Origin: Arenicellales bacterium
GTDB lineage: Bacteria > Pseudomonadota > Gammaproteobacteria > Arenicellales > JAJDZL01
DNA: 64,000 bases
Reading direction: 5' to 3'
Assembly (NCBI GenBank): GCA_951813075.1
Contig: OX638343.1
Span: forward strand, 2,353,999 to 2,417,998
Shown here: positions 50,793 through 64,000 of the stretch, piece by piece
Layout: each line of letters begins with the position of its first letter
Numbering within the stretch: position 1 is the stretch's first letter
Notes under the pieces: model-generated
Told to the model about the DNA's origin: nothing
What the model saw: only the letters and a program-made list of their open reading frames with translations
Database searches by the model: none
Translations under genes and position numbers: made by a program

Positions 50793-51533
50793 TTATTGAA
50801 CGCGAACGGATTTTCTTTTGGAAGCCGCAAGCGTCACAGAAATTTCCTGCCTGAAAGTTCCCGCTTCCCAAATTCTCAGTCGGTATTCACCTGGCGCTAT
50901 ATTGGTCCAGCGAATGGACTTGGGTTCACGGACAAGTTCATAGAACGGATTCGACGGTACGAACATCCAAGCGTGCATGAAAGGATGAATGTCACATCGT
51001 ACAGTCAGCATGCCAGTGGATTTGATTATCTTTCGGACGGTGACGCTTTTTAGTGGCGTCGCGACATTGAAAACGGTATCGTCACCATCAATGACGTGAG
51101 TGTTGTGCAAAAAATCATCTCTGTTTTCAATTTCTATTGTGCTACCAGGTGAAATGATCTGAAAAGTTGGTATAAACTGATTGTCTTCAATAATGATCTG
51201 ACTGATGTCGTCATTTTCCGGAACAGGCGTAAGAGGAGGGTACGATTGTTCAAGGTAGATGAGCACGGGTGCAACTTTGATCGAGTCAAGGCGAATTTCC
51301 ATCTGCGCTCGGTTTGGGTCAGTTGTCGGAGTCGAGATTTCGAAGTGCGAGTGAAAGACAAGTACAAAGAATCCGAGCACTACAACGATCACCGTGGAAA
51401 TTACCAATTTGCGTGAACGACGCGCTCGTACGGCAGGTTGTTTCTGTCTTGCTTGGCTCTGCCTGAGTGCGTGACGGCGTGCCCGAGCTTGTTTGGCACG
51501 CTGAACCATGAGTCGATACAGAAGCCGTAGCAT
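50793..51533 (-). CDS. Membrane-anchored cupredoxin-like protein
   Basis: A 246-residue protein. The first 43 residues are strongly basic (many Arg, Lys, Gln); a single membrane helix covers about 44-62; the rest is periplasmic. The mid part has NRDDFLHNTHVIDGDD and VRCDIHPFMHAWMFV, which gives His...Cys-x2-His-x6-Met spacing, like a type 1 copper site of plastocyanin/MauL-type methylamine-utilisation proteins. The region after it (RWTNIAPGEYRLRIWEAG) looks like a carboxypeptidase-regulatory beta domain. Copper binding is inferred. It is convergent with the TauE gene and divergent from the AAA+ gene. Confidence 0.7.
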   Translation of the reverse strand: MLRLLYRLMVQRAKQARARRHALRQSQARQKQPAVRARRSRKLVISTVIVVVLGFFVLVFHSHFEISTPTTDPNRAQMEIRLDSIKVAPVLIYLEQSYPPLTPVPENDDISQIIIEDNQFIPTFQIISPGSTIEIENRDDFLHNTHVIDGDDTVFNVATPLKSVTVRKIIKSTGMLTVRCDIHPFMHAWMFVPSNPFYELVREPKSIRWTNIAPGEYRLRIWEAGTFRQEISVTLAASKRKSVRVQ

Positions 51534-51633: not shown

Positions 51634-52419
51634 ATGAATGACTCCGTAATTCCATTCTATCTTGCTCAGGATAGCGAGATCGAGGTATTCAAGTCTGCTT
51701 ACCGAAGACAGCTCGCAGTATTACTCAAAGGACCGACTGGATGTGGCAAGACGCGCTTCGTCAGATACATGGCGGGGACGCTCGGCAGGCCGTTGTATAC
51801 GGTTGCATGTCACGACGAGCTTTCGGCAACCGACTTGCTCGGCCGATATCTAATCAAGAATGACGAAACAGTCTGGCACGACGGACCGTTGACCCGGGCG
51901 GTCCGAGAGGGCGGAATTTGCTATCTCGACGAAATTGTTGAAGCACGCAAGGACACGACTGTGATTCTTCATCCGTTGTGTGACGACAGGCGTACGATCT
52001 ATCTCGACAAGACCGCCGAAGTAATCAAGGCTCCGCCGGAATTCATGCTGGTAGTCTCATTCAATCCGGGTTATCAGAATCTCTTTAAGAATCTTAAACA
52101 AAGCACGCGCCAACGGTTTGTATCGTTGACGTTTGATTTTCCACAAATGAAGCAGGAAATCGAAATTGTAGTCACCGAAACCGGAGTCAGCACAGATACA
52201 GCTGAAAAACTGGTGAAACTTGGTAGACGCTTGCGCGAGGTGGAGGGTCACGATATTGAGGAGACAGCCTCAACCCGTCTTTTGGTGCATGCTGCACACA
52301 TGATTCAAGATGGTCTGGACCACCGAAATGCAAGCGAAGCGGCATTGGTCGATTCACTTACCGATGACCCTGTCATTCGAGATGGATTGATGGAGATTGT
52401 GCATGCCTACTTCTCTTAG
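51634..52419 (+). CDS. MoxR-type AAA+ ATPase, CbbQ/NirQ/NorQ family
   Basis: A 261-residue AAA+ protein. Walker A is LLKGPTGCGKTRFVRYMA; Walker B GICYLDEIVEARKDT; VVSFNPGYQ is sensor 1, and RQRFVSLTFDFP the arginine-finger region. The CHDELSATDLLGRYL stretch is typical of CbbQ/NorQ. With a VWA partner these ATPases remodel metalloenzymes: CbbQO activates Rubisco, NorQD matures nitric oxide reductase. Neither target gene is in the window; the nearest metalloenzymes are the cobalt nitrile hydratase downstream and the haem-copper oxidase. It overlaps the VWA gene by 23 nt. Confidence 0.92.
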   Translation: MNDSVIPFYLAQDSEIEVFKSAYRRQLAVLLKGPTGCGKTRFVRYMAGTLGRPLYTVACHDELSATDLLGRYLIKNDETVWHDGPLTRAVREGGICYLDEIVEARKDTTVILHPLCDDRRTIYLDKTAEVIKAPPEFMLVVSFNPGYQNLFKNLKQSTRQRFVSLTFDFPQMKQEIEIVVTETGVSTDTAEKLVKLGRRLREVEGHDIEETASTRLLVHAAHMIQDGLDHRNASEAALVDSLTDDPVIRDGLMEIVHAYFS

Positions 52420-54151
52420 GAGCGACTACTTTGCAGCTGGCATATCTGTTTTGTGGTATGGATTGCTGTTTGGATTGGCGGGGCGGCTTCGACATCCTCA
52501 GTACGCGGTGAGAGGCCAGGATCTGTGGCAAGGTTTGGATCTTTATTTTCACGCGATGGGTGGTGACCTCCAGCGCAAGGTGAGTTCGGGTGCCCAACTG
52601 AATGCTTCGGTTCGAATGACCGCGCACGGAGGAGTTGATCTGCAAGCATGGTCAGAGCCGGGTGTGCTGCATTTGCCGAGGCGAATAAACCGTTATCCTG
52701 ACCGTGAACTGAATCGTGATCTTTACTATTGGCTGGCGGCTGTGCTGGCGTTTAATGAGTCTTGTCCCGGGACCGAAACACTACCGCCGGGTGTGCGCCA
52801 TTTATTGCAGGGCGCTGCCACGACCAAGCGGTTGCTGACCGCCTTTCCAAGTCTGAAAAAAAGATATCGCAATCTTTGCGAGCAGGAACTCGAGCTACGA
52901 AGAGCAGCCTGCGCAGATCCATCAGAAAAAACGCGCAATCCTTCGCTGGTGCTTGAGGCTGCCATTCGACGCGAACTTGGCGCTGACATCGACCATGTGC
53001 ATAGCTCACTGACTGCAATGATCGAGCAGGCCAAATCCAATCGCGTAGTCACTGCGGATTCGAATTGGTTGGGTAAAACCGTTCCATTTCTACCAGTACC
53101 GCTATGGAGTTATCGAACTGCTCATGTTGAAAGATTCAGGCTGCCATTTTTAAAAGGCGCGAAGAAACAACGCGATGACGCATCCGAACAAACGCCGAAA
53201 ACGGCAATCTTTGATCTTGACGACATTCCAGAGCCAAGACAGGGCCTTGCCGCGATTCGTGATCATTTCACCTACCCCGAGTGGAACTGCCATTCCCATA
53301 CGTATATGAGAGACTGGTGCAGGCTGATCGAGCAAAAACCGAAAGGGGGCTATCACGCTGAGTTGGATTCTCAATTCTCGGAACTCGTACACCGCGTGCG
53401 CAGACGATTTTCACTGTTGCGCCAGGAATCACAATGGAATCGTTTTCTTGAGGATGGAGAGGAACTTGATATCGATTCTTACGTGACGTGCGCGGCTGAC
53501 AGATTCGGCTGTGGCATGCTTGAGTCGACCTACTACCGACAGAAAATCCAGCAGTATCGAGATATTTCTGTCATAGTCCTGATGGATGCTTCGCGCTCGA
53601 CAGAAGCTTGGGTTGGCGGTTGCCGAGTGATTGATGTTGCCAAGCAATCGATGGCTGTACTCGCACAAGTACTGGATTCGGTTGCTGACGATTTCGCACT
53701 CTATGCATTTTCGAGTGACAGTCGACTGCGGGTTCGCTGTGATCGAATAAAGACTTTTGACGATACGTACGATGAGACGATCCGGCGTAATTTATTGGAA
53801 GTCAAACCACAGAACTATACCCGAATGGGTCCCGTGATCAGACATCTGGGTGCTAAGTTACATGCTCGAAAATCAAGACAAAAACTGTTGGTGGTTTTAA
53901 GTGATGGGAAACCACATGATCCGACCGATCAGTACGAGGGTCGGTACGCACTGGAAGATACGCGTAGAGCGTTGATGGAGCAAAGATCGAAAAGTGTGAT
54001 GTGTTTCGGATTGACGATTGACCAATCAGGCCCGCGCTATTTGAGTCATCTGTTTGGTCCCGGACACTACGCGGTATATTCGCATTTACATTCGTTACCT
54101 GATGTACTACCTGGACTATATGCGAGGCTAACTGACTTGAATTTGCAGTAA
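52397..54151 (+). CDS. VWA-domain protein, CbbO/NorD family
   Basis: A 584-residue partner of the preceding ATPase. The C-terminal 220 residues are a von Willebrand A domain with the MIDAS motif DASRSTEAW (D-x-S-x-S), TRMGPVIRHLGAKL and LVVLSDGKPHD. The long N-terminal region contains helical segments seen in NorD/CbbO; YPEWN and SHTYMRDWC lie just before the VWA part. It is soluble. The start at 52397 lies inside the ATPase gene; an internal ATG could shorten the overlap. Family knowledge: the VWA protein recruits the target and the ATPase. Confidence 0.9.
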   Translation: MCMPTSLRSDYFAAGISVLWYGLLFGLAGRLRHPQYAVRGQDLWQGLDLYFHAMGGDLQRKVSSGAQLNASVRMTAHGGVDLQAWSEPGVLHLPRRINRYPDRELNRDLYYWLAAVLAFNESCPGTETLPPGVRHLLQGAATTKRLLTAFPSLKKRYRNLCEQELELRRAACADPSEKTRNPSLVLEAAIRRELGADIDHVHSSLTAMIEQAKSNRVVTADSNWLGKTVPFLPVPLWSYRTAHVERFRLPFLKGAKKQRDDASEQTPKTAIFDLDDIPEPRQGLAAIRDHFTYPEWNCHSHTYMRDWCRLIEQKPKGGYHAELDSQFSELVHRVRRRFSLLRQESQWNRFLEDGEELDIDSYVTCAADRFGCGMLESTYYRQKIQQYRDISVIVLMDASRSTEAWVGGCRVIDVAKQSMAVLAQVLDSVADDFALYAFSSDSRLRVRCDRIKTFDDTYDETIRRNLLEVKPQNYTRMGPVIRHLGAKLHARKSRQKLLVVLSDGKPHDPTDQYEGRYALEDTRRALMEQRSKSVMCFGLTIDQSGPRYLSHLFGPGHYAVYSHLHSLPDVLPGLYARLTDLNLQ

Positions 54152-55520: not shown

Positions 55521-56132
55521 ATGAGTGAGCACCGGCACGCACATCCACCGAAGAAGGTGGAAATCAGGGTAAAAGCACTGGAGTCGCTTTTGGTTGAAAA
55601 AGGACTTGTTGACCCCTTGGCACTTGATGAGTTGGTTGATGTATACGAGCATCGGGTTGGACCTCAGAATGGGGCGAAAGTTGTTGCCAAGGCGTGGTGT
55701 GATCCTGCTTATCGGGATAGGTTGCTTGGAGATGCTACGGCGGCGATTGCAGAGTTTGGATTTAAGGGGCGCCAGGGCGAAGACATGGTGGCGTTGGAAA
55801 ATACACCAACAGTTCACAACATGGTAGTGTGTACGCTTTGCTCGTGTTACCCATGGCCGGTACTTGGACTACCGCCCGTTTGGTATAAGTCGCCGCCCTA
55901 TAGGGCGAGGGCGGTATCCGAACCGAGAAGCGTTCTTGAGGAATTCGGTGTCAGATTGGAAAGTCATGTCGAGGTTCGGGTGTGGGACAGTACAGCAGAA
56001 GTGCGCTATCTGGTGATCCCGATGAGACCGGAGGGGACCGAGCATTTCAACGAAATTCAGTTGGCCAGTCTTGTGACCCGGGACTCTATGATCGGCACAG
56101 GCATTATCAAGCCGCCGGAGTCAGTTCAGTGA
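55521..56132 (+). CDS. nthA: Cobalt-type nitrile hydratase alpha subunit
   Basis: 203 residues, the usual length. The metal-binding claw is Cys104-Thr-Leu-Cys107-Ser-Cys109 in [17 protein letters not shown]; Thr rather than Ser at the second place marks the cobalt type. [19 protein letters not shown] follows as in the family. The enzyme hydrates nitriles to amides; Cys107 and Cys109 are normally oxidised to sulfinate and sulfenate. Thiocyanate hydrolase gamma has the same claw but is longer, so nitrile hydratase is favoured. GGGG precedes the ATG. The TGA stop overlaps the next GTG start (GTGA, 56129-56132). Confidence 0.92.
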
Positions 56133-56446
56133 AAGGTGCACACGATCTTGGCGGCAAAACGGGTTTTGGGCCCATCAATCCCGAGCAAGATGAACCTGTG
56201 TTTCATCACGATTGGGAGAAAAGAGCGTTTGCGCTGACGCTTGCTGCTGGATTCTTGGGGCAATGGAATCTCGACATGTCGCGCTATGCTCGGGAACGAA
56301 TGGACCACGACAGTTATCTTGCTTCGAGTTACTATGAAAAGTGGATTCATGGTCTTCAAACATTGCTTGTGGCAAAGGGTATTCTGACCGAAGAAGAGAT
56401 TGAGCAGCGTATGCGTCAGATTACCTCGGACGGAGAACTCGATTGA
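56129..56446 (+). CDS. Nitrile hydratase beta subunit, N-terminal half (split gene)
   Basis: 105 residues from GTG at 56129. [31 protein letters not shown] is the classic beta-subunit opening split here over residues 2-32, and [22 protein letters not shown] is the helical domain that wraps the alpha subunit. The frame then ends at TGA 56444-56446, where an ordinary beta subunit would continue for another 110 residues; that part is encoded by the next ORF in the -1 frame. The next start (TTG 56443) overlaps by 4 nt. A longer frame from 55982 exists but its extra N-terminus lies in alpha coding sequence and is spurious. Confidence 0.88.
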
Positions 56447-56793
56447 AAGCGTTGAAAGAAAAGGATGTTTGGGATGTACTTCATCGTGGCAGCAGCGCTC
56501 GAATGGCAACGCATTCCACTGCCAAGTTTGTACCAGGCAGCAGGGTGAGGGCTAAATCCATGAATCATTCAGGTCACATACGTCTACCGGAATTTGTGCA
56601 GGGACGTGAGGGCGTTGTCGCTTCTGATCAGGGAGCATTCATTTTTCCAGACGAACATGCAAGGGGCAGCAAGCGCTCAGAGCGGCTTTACAGCGTTCGT
56701 TTTGAAGGCGACGAGTTGTGGGGTAATGAGTCTTCACAGTCGCCGACCGCAGTTTTTGTGGATCTTTTTGAATCCTATCTGGAGACTGCATGA
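56443..56793 (+). CDS. Nitrile hydratase beta subunit, C-terminal half (split gene)
   Basis: 116 residues from TTG at 56443 within the TTGA overlap. It matches the SH3-like C-terminal domain of nitrile hydratase beta: FVPGSRVRAKSMNHSGHIRLPEFVQGREGVV, then FIFPDEHARG, LYSVRFEGDELWG and VFVDLFESYLE. Thiocyanate hydrolase (beta plus alpha chains) and toyocamycin nitrile hydratase ToyJKL have the same division, so a real three-chain enzyme is credible; a sequencing or recent frameshift at 56443 is the alternative. It overlaps the activator gene by ATGA (56790-56793). Confidence 0.85.
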   Translation: MKALKEKDVWDVLHRGSSARMATHSTAKFVPGSRVRAKSMNHSGHIRLPEFVQGREGVVASDQGAFIFPDEHARGSKRSERLYSVRFEGDELWGNESSQSPTAVFVDLFESYLETA

Positions 56794-57104
56794 GTACTCA
56801 AACAGCAAGTTTGGAGCAGTTTTTTCGAGATGGAGAAGAACCGATATTCGAAGAGCCTTGGATGGCACGTGCATTTGCACTTACTGTAGAACTTCATCAG
56901 CAAGGTGTATTCACCTGGTCGCAATGGAGTGTGTATCTTGCTGATGCCATCAATTCGACGGCGGACGAAGATGGTGTCGGATACTACGAAAGTTGGTTGC
57001 AGGCGCTGGAAAATCTGCTACGCGATAATGACGTTGTGGATTTGGTGAATTACACGCAGGAAATTCGACGGATACAGGATGCCGTGGCTACCACCGATCA
57101 TTGA
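56790..57104 (+). CDS. Nitrile hydratase activator (P14K/accessory protein)
   Basis: 104 residues homologous to the beta N-terminal domain, as known for the P14K-type self-subunit-swapping chaperones of cobalt nitrile hydratases. Motifs: EPIFEEPWMARAFALTVELHQQGVFTWSQW (split over about 17-46) and YYESWLQALENLL. Family knowledge: it carries alpha during cobalt loading and cysteine oxidation, then exchanges with apo-alpha. It is the last gene of a tightly overlapping four-gene cassette; a 130-nt gap precedes the next gene. Confidence 0.9.
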   Translation: MSTQTASLEQFFRDGEEPIFEEPWMARAFALTVELHQQGVFTWSQWSVYLADAINSTADEDGVGYYESWLQALENLLRDNDVVDLVNYTQEIRRIQDAVATTDH

Positions 57105-58204: not shown

Positions 58205-58348
58205 TCAGCGATTGAGTATTGTCGGGCCAGCGCTCTTTGTGGTTTCCATCATTTCAATCGATTCTACCGAGTTCAAGACAAAAATCGCCACGATCGCAAA
58301 TACCGCGAGCAGAATGATGGGAAGTATGATTCGAAGAAAAAAGCCCAT
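58205..58348 (-). CDS. Tiny membrane protein at end of oxidase operon
   Basis: A 47-residue frame, ATG at 58348 to TGA at 58205, 30 nt after the preceding 84-residue gene on the same strand. It begins MGFFLRIILPIILLAVFAIV, one clear membrane helix, then a short polar tail ending ILNR. Size and position suit an accessory subunit of the oxidase or an assembly factor. The ribosome site is weak and no family is recognised, so this is a reading-frame call based on hydrophobicity and operon position. Confidence 0.45.
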   Translation of the reverse strand: MGFFLRIILPIILLAVFAIVAIFVLNSVESIEMMETTKSAGPTILNR

Positions 58349-58378
58349 TGTCAGTGCAGTTCAACTGCTGAATACCTG

Positions 58379-58633
58379 TTAGAGATCTTCTAGATTACCG
58401 TGTTTGTCGTGGCCTTCTCTTGTAGCGATGAAGTAGCGACGCCACGCTATTGCAATGAGCACGAGGAACGGAAGTAGAATACAAGCAAGAAATACAAAGT
58501 ATAGAAACCATGGAACGCCCAGTGACATTTTCACATAGACGTAAGGGCTGATCTGGGCTACTGAAGATGGTGACACCACAAGCGCTCCCCAAAGAACCAG
58601 CGAGGTATAACCCGCTTTGCGAACCAGGTTCAC
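58379..58633 (-). CDS. Small membrane protein in oxidase operon
   Basis: 84 residues with a possible signal-like first helix (about 8-24, YTSLVLWGALVVSPSS) and a second helix at about 42-64 (LYFVFLACILLPFLVLIAIAW), then a charged tail. The gene begins at the base where the thioredoxin gene stops (58633), so translation is coupled. No family recognised; a small oxidase accessory role is inferred from position. Confidence 0.65.
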   Translation of the reverse strand: MNLVRKAGYTSLVLWGALVVSPSSVAQISPYVYVKMSLGVPWFLYFVFLACILLPFLVLIAIAWRRYFIATREGHDKHGNLEDL

Positions 58634-59148
58634 TAACCTTCCTTCGCGTTCAGTATCTTGTCAATTTCCAGAGTCAATAGACCAAGTTCAGTCTGACCCG
58701 GGAATACTGAACGAACTGTTCCTCTACTATCTACCAGATAAGTCCAAGGTTCGCCCGTTACACCCCACTCAACCCAGACTGAAGTGTCCTTGTATCCGTC
58801 AACATGTACAAATGCGAAACGCTCACCATACTGTTCCGCCATAACTGCGACGCGAGTGATCTGATCAACACACATCGTACAGTGTTGAGGGGTACCAAAG
58901 ACGACCAGGAACGGTTTGTGCTGATTGACCAGGTCTGCAATTTTCCACTCGTAAAGTGGCACCTTGGTATCCATGGAGGAAATTTCGTACCACTTGTCTG
59001 GATCAGACACCGTCAGATTGTTGCTCTTTGGAACTTGATCGCCGATGCTGAGTTTCGCTTGCACTCCTAATTTCTCACCGCAACCAACTGTCAGTGAGAG
59101 CAATAGCAAAATCGCAAAAACGGAAAAAATTTTGTGTATCTTCATCAT
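58633..59148 (-). CDS. Thioredoxin-fold lipoprotein in oxidase operon
   Basis: About 171 residues from ATG 59148 (MMKIHKIF), giving a lipoprotein-type signal LLLLSLTVGC with Cys near residue 23. The frame is open to 59310 but the longer start adds an unlikely N-terminus. The core is thioredoxin-like: PFLVVFGTPQHCTMCVDQI with a CxxC motif (CTMC), FAFVHVDGY, and the cis-proline-like GEPWTYLVD. Periplasmic thiol proteins of this sort help to deliver copper or keep cysteines reduced during haem-copper oxidase and cytochrome c assembly. Confidence 0.85.
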   Translation of the reverse strand: MMKIHKIFSVFAILLLLSLTVGCGEKLGVQAKLSIGDQVPKSNNLTVSDPDKWYEISSMDTKVPLYEWKIADLVNQHKPFLVVFGTPQHCTMCVDQITRVAVMAEQYGERFAFVHVDGYKDTSVWVEWGVTGEPWTYLVDSRGTVRSVFPGQTELGLLTLEIDKILNAKEG

Positions 59149-59200
59149 CAACTTGACTATACTAGATATCCATACATATTTTGACTGTTTAGTGAAATTT

Positions 59201-59356
59201 ATGCAAGAACTACCACTGCTGACAATTCTCGCTCTGACCATTTTCGGGCTGGGCGGAGCAATCGCTCTCGCAATCGTCCCTTGGGCATGCATTGGAACAG
59301 GATTGTACAATCAAAACAAAGAATACCAGTCTGGTCCATCCGATAACGAATCATAG
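59201..59356 (+). CDS. Possible 51-residue membrane protein, divergent from thioredoxin lipoprotein
   Basis: ATG at 59201 to TAG at 59356. It encodes one hydrophobic helix (LLTILALTIFGLGGAIALAIV) and a polar tail rich in Asn, Gln, Ser. It is on the opposite strand to all oxidase genes around it, with a 52-nt gap to the thioredoxin start. TTGACT near 59153 upstream could be a -35. The ribosome site is poor. Uncertain. Confidence 0.35.
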   Translation: MQELPLLTILALTIFGLGGAIALAIVPWACIGTGLYNQNKEYQSGPSDNES

Positions 59357-59377
59357 TTGGTTCGTACTCCGCGCTCT

Positions 59378-59785
59378 TTACTTGGCGGTATTACTATTTA
59401 CCTTAAGCGCAAGTAGATAGTCTACCAGATTATTCAGATCATCTTCAGGCAGATGGTTGTATGGTGGCATCTTCAATCGGTATGGCTTCTGACTGATACC
59501 TGGCCACGGTGATTTCAAATAACTGATCAACCACTTCCTATCTCTTTTGCTACCAATACCATCCAGACTCGGGCCGTACGACGCACCGTTGCCGAAAATT
59601 TCGTGACAGGCCAGACAACCTTCACGACGATAGATGCTTTCGCCTTTGAGCGAGCTCGCGGTCTCTTCATATATAAACTGAACCGGCGGTGGCTTGAGAT
59701 AGATGATGCTCCCCACTATTACAGCGAATGCAAAAATCAAAACAGTCCCTGCAATGACAATCCATTCACCTGCCGTGAATTTCAT
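59378..59785 (-). CDS. Membrane-anchored monohaem cytochrome c
   Basis: 135 residues. A membrane anchor covers about 8-30 (WIVIAGTVLIFAFAVIVGSIIYL); haem c binds at Cys57-Leu-Ala-Cys60-His61 in EGCLACHEIFG. LDGIGSKRDRKWLISYLKSP follows, and a Met in LKMPPYNHL is the likely sixth ligand. It is a clear paralogue of the protein at 59995-60456. Inference: the pair may replace CcoP as electron carriers to the oxidase. Confidence 0.88.
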   Translation of the reverse strand: MKFTAGEWIVIAGTVLIFAFAVIVGSIIYLKPPPVQFIYEETASSLKGESIYRREGCLACHEIFGNGASYGPSLDGIGSKRDRKWLISYLKSPWPGISQKPYRLKMPPYNHLPEDDLNNLVDYLLALKVNSNTAK

Positions 59786-59802
59786 CGCGATGTCCGAAGT
59801 AA

Positions 59803-59964
59803 TCAGTTGTAACGGTCGTCGTCACCTTCCGTAAATATCTGGTCTTTAATATTTTCGTCAAACTGGTTGTTTTTATATGCCCAGTAAATGACGATGACAA
59901 TAGCAACCAGCATGATCAGGCCAGTTGCCGCCCAGATAAACGGTATCAGTGTTTCAGGATTCAA
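59803..59964 (-). CDS. CcoS-like small membrane protein
   Basis: A 53-residue frame with TTG start at 59964, preceded by AAAAAGG about 9 nt upstream, and TGA at 59803-59805. It has one helix (IPFIWAATGLIMLVAIVIVIYWAY) followed by KNNQFDENIKDQ and an acidic tail. The helix-then-GQFDD-like pattern resembles CcoS, the cbb3 assembly protein; CcoQ-like is the other reading. It sits between the two cytochrome c genes. Confidence 0.6.
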   Translation of the reverse strand: MNPETLIPFIWAATGLIMLVAIVIVIYWAYKNNQFDENIKDQIFTEGDDDRYN

Positions 59965-59994
59965 AATAATTGCCTTTTTGTATGAGTACCGGCC

Positions 59995-60456
59995 TTAAGA
60001 ATCAGACGATACGGGTTTGATCGGATAGTTGGGTGAGTTCGGATTAGCACGTAGTCCTGACAGAAATGCAGCCAGCTTTACTCGATCGGTCTCTTCAAGA
60101 AGCCTGAAATCTGGTCCGAGATTGCCATGGTGGGCAGTACCCGGCACGAGAGTTTCAGGATCTGTCAGATACTGATGAAGCCAGTCACGTGTTCTGCGCG
60201 TACCTACACCGTCTAACACTGGAGCGACTCCGACTTCTCCAGTCCCCATCGCTCTATGACAACTGTTGCACCCCATCTTTCGGTACACGAGATGTCCTTG
60301 TAGTCCGGTTTCGTCAAACTCATAGTAATTTTTTGGCGGGGGACGATCTTCTGCAGTGAACTGCCGGTATCCTTTTCCAACAGCGGCGATTACGACAATA
60401 ACCGCAAATCCGAACATGATTTTTTCACCGAGTTTCACTGGACTCTCGTACGTCAA
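59995..60456 (-). CDS. Membrane-anchored monohaem cytochrome c, paralogue
   Basis: 153 residues. A membrane helix at about 14-27 (MFGFAVIVVIAAVG), haem site Cys63-Asn-Ser-Cys66-His67 in MGCNSCHRAMG, then APVLDGVGTRRTRDWLHQYLTDP, matching the paralogue at 59378 in order and spacing. A Met sixth ligand is not obvious (the end has LGPDFRLLEE), so His or another residue could serve. Nine bases separate it from the upstream small gene. Confidence 0.86.
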   Translation of the reverse strand: MTYESPVKLGEKIMFGFAVIVVIAAVGKGYRQFTAEDRPPPKNYYEFDETGLQGHLVYRKMGCNSCHRAMGTGEVGVAPVLDGVGTRRTRDWLHQYLTDPETLVPGTAHHGNLGPDFRLLEETDRVKLAAFLSGLRANPNSPNYPIKPVSSDS

Positions 60457-60465
60457 TACCGATTG

Positions 60466-60672
60466 CTAAAACACGACATGAAACAGCAACTCGACAGCCG
60501 CGTACACCACGACGAGTATAATTCCAACGACACCCAGTGATAATACGATTTTTTCAACCCGTTTGAGTTGCGTCAGAGGTCCTAGCACGAAGCGTGACAT
60601 GATGACATAAACGAACACGCCGATTACTATCAGCGCAAATATCAGAGCTGATATTTGATCTGTAAACCCCAC
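60466..60672 (-). CDS. Small two-helix membrane protein in oxidase operon
   Basis: 68 residues with two hydrophobic segments (about 7-28, ISALIFALIVIGVFVYVIM, and 42-64, KIVLSLGVVGIILVVVYAAVELLF). No family recognised. The gene lies 18 nt after the 128-residue gene and 9 nt before the cytochrome c gene, so it belongs to the operon. Confidence 0.65.
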   Translation of the reverse strand: MGFTDQISALIFALIVIGVFVYVIMSRFVLGPLTQLKRVEKIVLSLGVVGIILVVVYAAVELLFHVVF

Positions 60673-60690
60673 TGATAGCAGGCTGGAAAT

Positions 60691-61077
60691 TTATGACTGG
60701 TCGCCGTTCTTGTTATTCTTGCCTCGCTCTTTCCACATTTGAATGTTGATATACCAGATGATACCTGCGATGCATGTGAGAACCACGATGATCTGAAACA
60801 GCACCATATAGTAGCCCCAATCCCACCAGGGCTGCTTACCTGTAGCACTAACGAAAGTTGTTGTAACGGTATCGTAACGTTGCCCGAATCCTGGCCAAGG
60901 CATAGTCCAGAGGAAAGCCTGAAAGACAGTAACGCCGGCAATCAGAACGAGCCACCACGGGATCTTGCCGTTACCTTCTTTTATGCCGTCGTATTCTTCG
61001 TCGCCAAAGCGACCAAAAACTTCGCCTTTATCTTCTAGTTCGTTTTGATCTGCCATCTTCTGCAGTCTCCCATTCAA
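60691..61077 (-). CDS. Two-helix membrane protein in oxidase operon
   Basis: 128 residues: an acidic cytoplasmic N-terminus (ADQNELEDKGEVFGRFGDEEYDGI), a helix at about 38-57 (IPWWLVLIAGVTVFQAFLW), a periplasmic loop and a second helix at about 88-110 (YYMVLFQIIVVLTCIAGIIWY). The N-terminal layout of acidic segment then IPWW-helix recalls the CcoP membrane anchor (D-G-I-x-E-x-x-x-x-P-x-W), but no haem c motif is present. It may be a haem-less CcoP-anchor equivalent; that is inference. It ends one base from the ccoO-like start on the same strand. Confidence 0.7.
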   Translation of the reverse strand: MNGRLQKMADQNELEDKGEVFGRFGDEEYDGIKEGNGKIPWWLVLIAGVTVFQAFLWTMPWPGFGQRYDTVTTTFVSATGKQPWWDWGYYMVLFQIIVVLTCIAGIIWYINIQMWKERGKNNKNGDQS

Positions 61078-61078
61078 C

Positions 61079-61600
61079 TTATTTCAATGTATCCAGATAA
61101 GCGATGATTGCATCCAGTTCGTGATCAGTCAGGTGCGTGAAAGCAGGCATGATCGATCCCGGAGTAACAGCTCTCGGGTCGCGGTGATGAACATAGTGCC
61201 AAGCCTTGACGCGATTTCGACTTGCAATATGAAGCAGGTCAGGCGCCTTTCGGTCAGATCCAAATAGACTGGGTGCCTCGCCCTGAACGTCGCCAGCGAC
61301 AGGCGGTTCACCGAAATACGTCCAATCCTGTGTCTGTTCCGGCAACAAGGTGTGGCACCACCAGCAACCTTCCCGAATAAAAATCTTCTTGCCTTTTCCG
61401 GCTAAAGTCGGAGCATCGTCTCCCCTCATCCATGGGTCGTGAATCGTCCACGCACTATGTCCGAGCATTTTTTCCTTTTCAATGGCCAATTCCGTTTTAG
61501 GAATCTCGTTCATGTAGGTCGAACCACCGACAATCGTAATTGCCACAGACGAAAATATCACCAAGACAACTAAAACTGCACCAGCTACATATTTTGGCAT
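61079..61600 (-). CDS. ccoO: Cytochrome c oxidase subunit II, CcoO-like (monohaem)
   Basis: 173 residues. An N-terminal anchor (about 6-24), then haem c site Cys79-Trp-Trp-Cys82-His83 in FIREGCWWCHTLLPEQTQDW, equal to the FxREGCxxCH motif of CcoO, and the Met ligand in PGSIMPAFTHL. DLLHIASRNRVKAWHYVHHRDPRAV matches the CcoO core DL...R.S..WH..H...P. It is shorter than typical CcoO (about 200-300). It follows the catalytic subunit gene by 24 nt. Confidence 0.9.
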   Translation of the reverse strand: MPKYVAGAVLVVLVIFSSVAITIVGGSTYMNEIPKTELAIEKEKMLGHSAWTIHDPWMRGDDAPTLAGKGKKIFIREGCWWCHTLLPEQTQDWTYFGEPPVAGDVQGEAPSLFGSDRKAPDLLHIASRNRVKAWHYVHHRDPRAVTPGSIMPAFTHLTDHELDAIIAYLDTLK

Positions 61601-61624
61601 GACTGAATTCCTCTAACGTCTGTG

Positions 61625-63040
61625 TTAACTGGTTGCCGGGGCAGGCATCGCCTGACCACCGCGCGATTCTGGAACAATTTTCTCACCATATTTTGCGGTC
61701 ATCCACATATTGTATAGAAAGATTGGTTGAGCAAATATGATCAAGGCGCCGAACAACACTCGACCCACCATGTAGGGATGCGTGGCGATGACCGACTGGA
61801 TGTAGGGAATTTCGTAAACCTTGGCTGCACCTTGCACCAGGCCTGCAGCAGTCAGCACAGACCAGAATCCAAGAAATCCGATCGCCATCATCCAGAAATG
61901 CAAGCGGGCGAGTTTTTCGCTGTAGAGTTTCCGTTTAAGCAATTTGGGCAGGCCATAGTAGATAGCGCCGATTTCAATAAAACTTGAAAATCCCAGTAGT
62001 GCGAGATGAGCATGGGCAACAATCCAGTGCGTTCCATGAATGTACCAGTTGAGCGACCGGGTCTGTTGAAATGCCCCCTGGATGTTCAGCGGAATTGCGA
62101 ACAACACGCCCGTCAGCACCCATTGCAACGGAATGTTCTTGGTATACATCCACCACTTGTCCTTCATCGTCATCAGCATGTTTACCACAAAAGCCAGCGC
62201 TGGAATCATGATCAACACACCGGAAACTGAAGCAAACGACTTCAACCATTCCGGTATCGGCGCTCCCATCAGGTGATGCGCACCAGGGGTTGAGTAAAAT
62301 GCTGCGATTGACCAGAAGTGCAGATGGCCGATCTTGTGGCTGTACAGCGTGTTACCCGAAATTTTCGGAATAATGTAGTAGGCGATTGCCGCCGATACCG
62401 GCGTAATCCATAATCCGAGAATGTTGTGAGCGTGCCACCAGGTCATGTAAGCTTCCGCTAGCCCTGTTACCGGGAATAGATCCGGAACAGCACCGATGAA
62501 GTAGCTAAGTATGATGAACAGCAGTGCGGCACCGAAAAACCACATCGTTACATAGAGTCCTTGGGCTTGTCGGTTCAGCATTGTGAGCCAGATATTCACT
62601 GCCAGCGGGATGAAGATAAACAAGAGCACGTAAACATCCAGCGGCCAGATCAGATCTTGATATTCGCGGCCGGAAGTCATGCCATTGATCAGGGTGAAAA
62701 ACACAGCCACCATACCAATGTTCCAGGCCCAGCAATTCCAGGTTCCCAGTTTCTCGCTCCACAGCTTGGTCTTGCACAATGCAGGCGTCATGTAACACAT
62801 TGCACCGGCGAAAGCCATCGATATCCATCCAAAGATCACAAAATGCACATGTACCGGTCTCACCCGACCGAAGTGCAACCAAGGGATGTCATTTGGAAAG
62901 ACATCCGGCCACGCCAGTCTCATTGAGGTGATCAGGGCCAGAAATACTCCGATATTGAACATGACGATTGCTGAGAAAAAGAAATGCTTCGCGGCAGTTC
63001 CTTCAGCATAATCGTTTCGTGTGAGTACGTTAGTTGCCAT
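61625..63040 (-). CDS. ccoN: cbb3-type cytochrome c oxidase catalytic subunit I
   Basis: A 471-residue twelve-helix haem-copper oxidase subunit of the C family. Expected ligands are all visible: low-spin haem His64 or His66 in RPVHVHFVIF; CuB ligands His205 (WWHAHN) and His255/His256 (PGAHHLMG); the cross-linked catalytic tyrosine Tyr249 in AFYSTPGAHH; haem ligands His343/His345 in IVAHAHLALLG. Spacing differs by only two from the Pseudomonas stutzeri CcoN numbering I recall. The tyrosine argues against a nitric oxide reductase. It reduces oxygen to water while pumping protons. Confidence 0.93.
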   Translation of the reverse strand: MATNVLTRNDYAEGTAAKHFFFSAIVMFNIGVFLALITSMRLAWPDVFPNDIPWLHFGRVRPVHVHFVIFGWISMAFAGAMCYMTPALCKTKLWSEKLGTWNCWAWNIGMVAVFFTLINGMTSGREYQDLIWPLDVYVLLFIFIPLAVNIWLTMLNRQAQGLYVTMWFFGAALLFIILSYFIGAVPDLFPVTGLAEAYMTWWHAHNILGLWITPVSAAIAYYIIPKISGNTLYSHKIGHLHFWSIAAFYSTPGAHHLMGAPIPEWLKSFASVSGVLIMIPALAFVVNMLMTMKDKWWMYTKNIPLQWVLTGVLFAIPLNIQGAFQQTRSLNWYIHGTHWIVAHAHLALLGFSSFIEIGAIYYGLPKLLKRKLYSEKLARLHFWMMAIGFLGFWSVLTAAGLVQGAAKVYEIPYIQSVIATHPYMVGRVLFGALIIFAQPIFLYNMWMTAKYGEKIVPESRGGQAMPAPATS

Positions 63041-63080
63041 TGTTTGTTTCTCCGAATTCAGTTTTGGTCGGCAGTTGGAA

Positions 63081-63299
63081 TTACTTACCCTGTTTGATCA
63101 TTAATCTGTTCATGTACCAGAACGATAATGCCGATATTACACCGGTTCCGATTGAGATTACGAATCCCCAGACCAGCAAACCAGTCCACTCCTCATGACT
63201 GCGCATTCCGATTAAAGGTAGGAAGGCCAATTGAAAAACAGTACCGAGCCCGACACCGACAATGAATCCGTTGTACAAGAAATTGAGTAACCGATGCAT
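63081..63299 (-). CDS. Small two-helix membrane protein in oxidase operon
   Basis: 72 residues with helices at about 8-28 (LYNGFIVGVGLGTVFQLAFLP) and 42-63 (GLLVWGFVISIGTGVISALSFW). The ATG overlaps the stop of the preceding 184-residue gene by one base, and ccoN starts 40 nt later. No family recognised. Confidence 0.65.
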   Translation of the reverse strand: MHRLLNFLYNGFIVGVGLGTVFQLAFLPLIGMRSHEEWTGLLVWGFVISIGTGVISALSFWYMNRLMIKQGK

Positions 63300-63853
63300 T
63301 AAGTACCTCCGTTACGCTTGAAAACTGTCAGAAATATGTTTGTGATGAAAAGCCAGTAGCCGAATCCCATCAGAATTGCGGTTGTGATAATCGCGATATG
63401 ATGTATGGCACCGACTGCATCCAAAGCCTGCTGGTAGGTCATTCCGTCCAGCACCATATTGCCCTCAATGATGCCGAATAGCACCAGCGAGCTGAAAAAA
63501 CCGAGTACTCCGATGACGGAAAACCAAAAAGACGTATTGGACAGCGTGCGGCTGTATATTGGTCTATGGATGATTTTTGGCAGAATGTAGTAAAAGATTC
63601 CCATGAGCGCCAAAGTGACGCCGCCGACGAGATTGATGTGCGCGTGCGCCAATGGGTCAATCATGTGACCGGCAGGACCAGTCGCACGAATCCAGAGCGC
63701 GAACTCGGGCAAAGTCTGCAGTACGCCCTGAATCGTACCAATCAGCAGGTTGACCACCGACATGACCATGAATTTCAGGATTAACAGCGAATCATTATCT
63801 CTCGCTGTTTCCCGAACGGGTGAATCAACCATGACTTCTGCTGCAATATTCAT
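63299..63853 (-). CDS. Truncated haem-copper oxidase subunit I paralogue (C-terminal half)
   Basis: 184 residues with about four to five helices. It aligns with the last third of the neighbouring ccoN: HAHINLVGGVTLALMGIFYYILPKI corresponds to HAHLALLGFSSFIEIGAIYYGLPKL (each shown only in part), then PIYSRTLSNTSFWFSVIGVLGF and a final helix. The haem-ligand pair His70/His72 is kept, but the CuB site and tyrosine are absent, so it cannot reduce oxygen alone. It may be a second, structural or haem-binding membrane subunit. Confidence 0.75.
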   Translation of the reverse strand: MNIAAEVMVDSPVRETARDNDSLLILKFMVMSVVNLLIGTIQGVLQTLPEFALWIRATGPAGHMIDPLAHAHINLVGGVTLALMGIFYYILPKIIHRPIYSRTLSNTSFWFSVIGVLGFFSSLVLFGIIEGNMVLDGMTYQQALDAVGAIHHIAIITTAILMGFGYWLFITNIFLTVFKRNGGT

Positions 63854-63856
63854 TGA

Positions 63857-64000
63857 CTAACGATGTTTGTATTTTATTGCGAGATATTTAATGTACTTGA
63901 TAATTTGACCGCGCTGGACTGTGCTTAGCTGGTCACTCCAGCCTTGCATGGCAGAGCCACGAATACCGTTTCGTATGGCTCCATCCAACTGTTCATCGGT
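63857..64000 (-). CDS. Cytochrome c domain protein, C-terminal end (cut by window edge)
   Basis: The last 47 codons of a minus-strand gene, ending TAG at 63857-63859, 3 nt before the next start. The visible residues TDEQLDGAIRNGIRGSAMQGW and QLSTVQRGQIIKYIKYLA match the end of a class I cytochrome c, with the Met in GSAMQGW as the likely sixth haem ligand. The haem motif lies beyond the window. This puts yet another c cytochrome at the head of the oxidase operon. Confidence 0.75.
   Translation of the reverse strand, partial: TDEQLDGAIRNGIRGSAMQGWSDQLSTVQRGQIIKYIKYLAIKYKHR

Follow-up and report, generated by a model that had tools for sequence, protein, structure and literature searches.

A rearranged cbb3-like oxidase operon from an Arenicellales bacterium encodes a distinct, conserved C-family subunit composition

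A 'distal' subtree of the cbb3 oxidases was reportedly delineated by Ducluzeau, Ouchane and Nitschke in 2008. The term 'distal' cbb3 is used in three more papers (PMC8788666, PMC7029218, PMC10734462), and those on iron oxidisers name under it an oxidase with a different subunit composition, the parts of which are left undescribed (PMC8788666, PMC7029218). In Sideroxydans ES-1, expression of the distal ccoNO is about 3-fold above that of the proximal and goes up on thiosulfate, and a homologue of Cyc1 is linked to a cbb3 cluster (PMC8788666). Zetaproteobacteria have two cbb3 forms (PMC7029218). Cyc1 is a dihaem c4 encoded in a region that is syntenic between Tenderia and Mariprofundus, and a 'complex IV-2' distinct from ccoNOPQ ranks with the most highly expressed in Ca. 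Tenderia electrophaga (PMC5371394).

The stretch of DNA analysed here (the window; 64,000 nucleotides, C1:2353999-2417998) lies within the single-contig genome, 3.14 Mb long, of a marine and presumably sulfur-oxidising bacterium. Publicly named relatives are 'Arenicellales bacterium' OY282380.1 and two gammaproteobacterial MAGs. A preliminary description of its end had reported homologues of ccoN and ccoO accompanied, instead of ccoP, by two paralogous anchored monohaem cytochromes, a further cytochrome c at the window's edge and at least five tiny membrane proteins. Each of these parts is borne out by the features below, to which two are added that had been overlooked, the COX1 module gene at 63299-63853 and the FixP_N domain at 60691-61077. 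The sequence was extended past 64000 as L005 (window position = L005 position + 56501); homologue counts refer to 34 related loci that are discussed further on.

L005 7356-7802 (to about window 64303), minus strand: anchored monohaem cytochrome c of 148 aa, complete gene in the extended flank
63857-64000, minus strand: 3' end of this same 148-aa cytochrome gene; Cytochrome_CBB3, 38.5 bits
63299-63853, minus strand: four-transmembrane-helix heme-copper-oxidase module, 184 aa; COX1 positions 307-431, 60 bits
63081-63299, minus strand: membrane protein of 72 aa; homologue in 33 of 34 loci
61625-63040, minus strand: catalytic CcoN-like subunit, 471 aa; Pfam COX1, 279 bits
61079-61600, minus strand: CcoO-like monohaem cytochrome c, 173 aa; FixO, 74 bits; hhalign 98.4% to canonical CcoO
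60691-61077, minus strand: FixP_N membrane protein, equivalent to the N terminus of CcoP minus its cytochrome domains, 128 aa; FixP_N, 28.6 bits against a gathering cut-off of 24.9
60466-60672, minus strand: two-helix membrane protein of 68 aa; homologues in 31 of 34 loci
59995-60456, minus strand: anchored monohaem cytochrome c 'cytN', 153 aa; Cytochrom_C, 33 bits
59803-59964, minus strand: single-helix protein of 53 aa; homologues in 31 of 34 loci
59378-59785, minus strand: anchored monohaem cytochrome c 'cytC', 135 aa; Cytochrom_C, 46.5 bits
58633-59148, minus strand: SCO/TlpA-like thioredoxin-fold lipoprotein with a C-x-x-C motif; Thioredoxin, 19.5 bits, under the cut-off
58379-58633, minus strand: membrane protein of 84 aa; homologues in 28 of 34 loci
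58205-58348, minus strand: single-helix protein of 47 aa; 89-94% identity across the genus

These genes belong to a long operon on the minus strand; they make up its downstream end, and its upstream part runs on past 64000. Its 5' part encodes, in order, a 245-aa CarboxypepD_reg/cupredoxin-like protein, a 370-aa phosphoesterase (Metallophos), a 155-aa SoxA/TsdA-like cytochrome, a 325-aa dihaem cytochrome and the 148-aa anchored cytochrome; then come the COX1 module, the 72-aa protein, the CcoN-like and CcoO-like subunits, the FixP_N protein, the 68-aa protein, cytN, the 53-aa protein and cytC, and the 3' end carries the SCO-like lipoprotein and the 84-aa and 47-aa proteins. Along the stretch that starts with the COX1 module and ends with the 47-aa gene, most gaps measure 0-40 bases, with a one-base overlap in two gene pairs; about 230 bases lie ahead of the SCO-like gene if its start is the ATG at 59148, as inferred here (the list of open reading frames has TTG at 59310), and SCO-like homologues of about 170 aa are present in related clusters. 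The genome as a whole has four COX1 matches: an aa3-type oxidase (assigned by sequence), a canonical CcoN at 2426090, the CcoN-like subunit of the window and a short match at 2417378. Elsewhere in the window, a 246-aa protein at 50793-51533 (minus strand), for which there was no Pfam match, resembles in its HNTH ... C-x-x-H motifs the 245-aa cupredoxin-like protein encoded upstream of the oxidase genes.

Compared with canonical ccoNOQP (that of P. stutzeri, 3mk7, and the genome's own copy), the operon shares the CcoN fold with all metal ligands and Tyr251, CcoO and a FixP_N domain; it differs in that the dihaem CcoP is absent, the FixP_N protein has no CxxCH, and a four-helix CcoN-like module and additional anchored monohaem cytochromes are present. 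Two of these cytochromes, cytN and cytC, are true paralogues (hhalign probability 99.7%), and the 148-aa cytochrome matches a cytochrome domain of canonical CcoP (hhalign 95.6%). The 53-aa protein is CcoQ-like by size only, a profile comparison with CcoQ having found no relation. A CcoP that joins FixP_N to a dihaem domain is not part of the operon either inside the window or outside it. A CcoP hidden past 64000 was considered and rejected, since in the extended flank the only copy lies in a complete canonical ccoNOQP (L005 15561-18642, plus strand) about 8-11 kb from the studied operon; this lies beyond the operon, and so the sole CcoP found belongs to the other one. Beside the canonical genes the flank also has a ccoI-like P-type ATPase (L005 12149-14593, minus strand).

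The gene set recurs as a cluster of about 16 genes in 34 loci, which are spread over many families in two classes. Outside the genus of the window and genome G094, its usual order is a c4-type dihaem cytochrome, cytN, the COX1 module, the SCO-like gene, D151, TM72, CcoN and CcoO, followed by FixP_N, TM68, TM53, cytC, D154, an FGE-sulfatase-like gene, TM84 and D129. A homologue of the FixP_N protein is found in 31 of the 34 loci, one of the 72-aa protein immediately precedes CcoN in nearly all of them, and homologues of all five tiny membrane proteins are kept in related operons. The 84-aa and 47-aa proteins appear by alignment to be fused in G094 (locus L116), which supports the 47-aa open reading frame as real. 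In L069 (G264) the outer parts are swapped, TM68-TM53-cytC-D154-FGE-TM84-D129 being upstream of CcoN and c4-cytN-module-SCO-D151 downstream.

Such clusters resemble in several respects the distal cbb3, the cyc1-linked cluster of ES-1 and Mariprofundus PV-1, and Tenderia complex IV-2: there is a second, non-canonical ccoNO beside the canonical one, the subunit composition is different, a dihaem c4 (Cyc1-like) is the first gene in gammaproteobacterial relatives, and the cluster occurs in a class outside Gammaproteobacteria whose genomes are small. The c4-first clusters are consistent with the Cyc1-linked reports from ES-1 and from Tenderia and Mariprofundus (PV-1), and the lineage of the window is likely the published 'distal' cbb3. 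The operon is less of an unknown than the preliminary description may have assumed, a 'distal' cbb3 having already been named for iron oxidisers. The window differs from the distal-type clusters, however, in much of its arrangement. The c4-like gene, which is found in 19 related loci, all gammaproteobacterial, is absent from its genus and is replaced by the cupredoxin-like, phosphoesterase, SoxA/TsdA-like and dihaem cytochrome genes; in this genus and in G094, where other cytochromes likewise stand in place of c4, the order is changed, D151, D154, the FGE-sulfatase-like gene and D129 are missing, CcoO lacks a large insertion (173 aa in the window as against about 316 aa in most relatives) and the FixP_N protein is shorter than in other carriers. 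The host genus is also without RuBisCO.

The CcoN sequences show how widely this lineage is spread. Among 321 sampled Gammaproteobacteria, window-type CcoN occurs in 28 genomes (about 9%) at 56-61% identity to the query, with one at 86% and one split over two open reading frames at 53-59%; canonical-like CcoN stands at 28-36%, and none was found in these 321 between 36% and the window-type group. In a sample of the phylum, 41 genomes of 1.4-3.1 Mb, which belong to three further families outside Gammaproteobacteria, carry window-type CcoN at 53-65% identity; judged by the size of these genomes and by the literature, their class is probably Zetaproteobacteria. Relatives in a plasmid collection reach only about 36% identity or lower. 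In the CcoN tree that the preliminary description had called for, the window type forms a clade separate from canonical CcoN and from a group encoded in three-gene clusters, although rooting with aa3 is unreliable (branch 7.2). These clusters (CcoN of about 550 aa, CcoO and a cytochrome c, in Azoarcus KH32C and Paraburkholderia; L074, L075) likewise have Gln323 and no canonical CcoP; they form their own clade, they retain Tyr237, Ser240 and Tyr317, and among their annotated neighbours the four-helix module is absent.

The most interesting part of the operon is the four-helix protein. Its 184 aa correspond by homology to the C-terminal third of CcoN, here a protein of its own; it aligns as well, more weakly, to other parts of CcoN, as a unit of an internally repeated fold should. 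An AlphaFold2 model (pLDDT 82) matches 3mk7_A CcoN with a TM of 0.68, and Foldseek gives this comparison a probability of 1.0, yet an E value of only 1e-3. The H-x-H motif of helix X (H70, H72), invariant in all aligned copies (26 and 22 homologues in two alignments), corresponds to the CcoN helix-X pair that binds haem b3 and haem b. The fragment does not include the haem b partner on helix II, and the alignment contains no other His that is invariant across both branches of the module family. Haem binding by the module is possible from its sequence; since the helix II partner is absent, such a haem would need another ligand. The module lies near CcoN in 30 of the 34 loci, and in five genomes checked because it was non-adjacent or the contig ended (G451, G480, G520, G473, G608) a free-standing copy is present elsewhere in the assembly. 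A recent truncation of the neighbouring CcoN was rejected as its origin, given an identity of about 30% and branches that lie apart, though these are long. Some genomes with the operon's module also contain a second, more distant free-standing four-helix heme-copper-oxidase-like protein (open frames of 187-242 aa):

G400:C42:5094-5591, second four-helix protein
G473:C3:1404604-1405092, second four-helix protein
G480:C15:5276-5773, second four-helix protein
G608:C233:2438-2929, second four-helix protein

Small assembly proteins of the CcoH/CcoS type are known from canonical cbb3 oxidases. With this precedent, and with the SCO-like gene adjoining the four-helix gene in most relatives, it is conceivable that the four-helix and tiny proteins are assembly factors and not subunits, so that the mature enzyme would consist only of N, O, FixP_N and the cytochromes. 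We regard this as somewhat doubtful: a structural or redox role would account no less well for the strict conservation of H70 and H72 and for the module's presence in all carriers that were checked.

The best match of the CcoN-like subunit in the PDB is the 3mk7 CcoN (E value 2e-63); against the NCBIfam ccoN equivalog TIGR00780 it scores 236.6 bits, under the 583-bit cut-off. The metal-ligand histidines (P. stutzeri 60, 207, 257, 258, 345 and 347) are identical in all 62 sequences of the clade, as are Tyr251 of helix VII (Tyr249 in the window protein) and His337. Because these active-site residues are kept, O2 chemistry, and with it O2 reduction by the CcoN-like subunit as predicted from its sequence, is well supported. 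Tyr237, Ser240 and Tyr317, which we take to be the residues of the K-path for protons in canonical CcoN, are invariant in the canonical set; in the window protein they are His, Gly and Ala, as in 62, 61 and 62 of the 62 clade members, respectively. Glu323 is replaced by Gln, and the stretch with the replaced residues also has two histidines specific to the clade (positions 235 and 239 of the window protein). Since the presumed K-path is altered in this way, proton uptake may differ from that of the canonical enzyme. One could go further and propose that the module is an obligatory redox subunit with an additional b-type haem, and that protons would be taken up by a rebuilt path in which His235 and His239 replace Tyr237, Ser240 and Tyr317; this combined proposal we hold to be unlikely. 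If it were true, the enzyme would be a C-family oxidase that has an additional element for electron entry or pumping, one not known from any solved heme-copper oxidase.

The cNOR enzymes, which are related to the C family (NorB matches at 1e-12), lack the redox tyrosine and carry an active-site glutamate at the fourth position past the helix VI His. In the window-type clade this tyrosine, Tyr251, is invariant (62/62), and in the window protein the position four residues past the helix VI metal His is Gly (WWHAHNILGLW). Even though Glu122 and Arg57, residues of a periplasmic cavity that is shared with cNOR (PMC3431322), are kept and Glu125 has become Asp, it is very improbable that this C-family enzyme has turned into a nitric oxide reductase or a dual NO/O2 enzyme.

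Homology, ligands, operon conservation and selection can all be read directly from the sequences compared. Between G000 and G001, where Ks is about 0.4-1.3, Ka/Ks is about 0.01 for the 53-aa protein and CcoO, 0.02 for CcoN, 0.03 for the 72-aa protein, 0.05 for each of the COX1 module, FixP_N and cytN, 0.1 for the 68-aa protein and, at most, 0.25 for the 84-aa protein; the set covered four of the five tiny membrane proteins. The tested genes, small ones included, are under purifying selection. The preliminary description had named a full second cbb3 operon, by which this one would be seen to be degenerate, as a finding that would speak against it; the second operon is present, and degeneracy is not, given the low Ka/Ks and the occurrence of the operon in all six genomes of the genus. 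That the operon is a decayed duplicate of the complete canonical ccoNOQP nearby, its CcoP lost and broken up, is scarcely credible when its CcoN is 30% identical to the canonical copy as against 56-97% to orthologues in other genomes, Ka/Ks is low in all genes tested and the gene set is kept across families and classes.

Taken together, the recurrence of the cluster in 34 loci, the separate CcoN clade and the C-family active-site residues support the earlier proposal of a distinct C-family subunit composition, which is real and conserved and of which the window holds a rearranged variant. It is probable that the operon specifies a functional, proton-motive C-family O2 reductase in which separate polypeptides share the work of CcoP and the lineage of which is very probably the 'distal' cbb3. 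For such an enzyme we infer the following scheme of complex membership, electron route, proton pumping, SCO-like role and haem on the four-helix module. Electrons from the periplasm would reach the anchored monohaem cytochromes through the dihaem and SoxA/TsdA-like cytochromes of the upstream genes, and the anchored cytochromes would hand them on to the haem c of the CcoO-like subunit; the CcoN-like subunit would accept them at its haem b and reduce O2 to water at its haem b3-CuB-Tyr centre. The FixP_N protein would make the contact in the membrane that CcoP makes elsewhere, CuB would be loaded by the SCO-like protein together with the nearby CcoI copper ATPase, and the four-helix module, possibly with a b haem, would pack against the core as an obligatory additional subunit.

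In the genus of the window these electrons plausibly come from the oxidation of sulfur compounds, given that SoxB is found in six of its six genomes and that the distal ccoNO of ES-1 goes up on thiosulfate. DsrA was found in none of the genus, and a search of the window's own genome for the cytochrome c7 family was negative. RuBisCO is found in 0/6 genomes of the genus, and a RuBisCO-family match is present in 27/27 gammaproteobacterial carriers searched outside it; the association is weak, because controls with canonical cbb3 mostly have RuBisCO too. The 155-aa SoxA/TsdA-like monohaem cytochrome (L005 8944-9411), the Cys of which (WCIEKP) is invariant within the genus, is possibly a sulfur-compound cytochrome that feeds the oxidase.

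Two other gene groups of the window were noted. The genes at 51634-54151 (plus strand) encode an AAA ATPase of the CbbQ/NorQ type and a CbbO/NorD-like VWA protein; in their genome, neither RuBisCO nor any COX1 protein resembling NorB was found. The ATPase is kept in 6/6 genomes of the genus and has a second copy at C1:1557395. This pair was rejected as a dedicated oxidase chaperone: it is conserved in the genus, and since it is not beside the oxidase in G002-G005, it is not linked to it. At 55521-57104 (plus strand) are nitrile hydratase/thiocyanate-hydrolase-like genes, alpha chain first, with a beta chain split into an N-terminal (55982-56446) and a C-terminal (56443-56793) part and a second beta-N-like frame at 56790-57104.

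In the literature texts searched, neither the free-standing CcoN module nor the split CcoP is described. The carriers of the recurring set of parts probably include iron and sulfur oxidisers, and if the distal identification holds, this set supplies the component list of an oxidase whose genes count with the most strongly expressed ones of some iron-oxidising and biocathode bacteria. As one third of a heme-copper oxidase stands free in every carrier checked, the haem content and proton path of this enzyme, and the modular origin of the superfamily, become directly testable.
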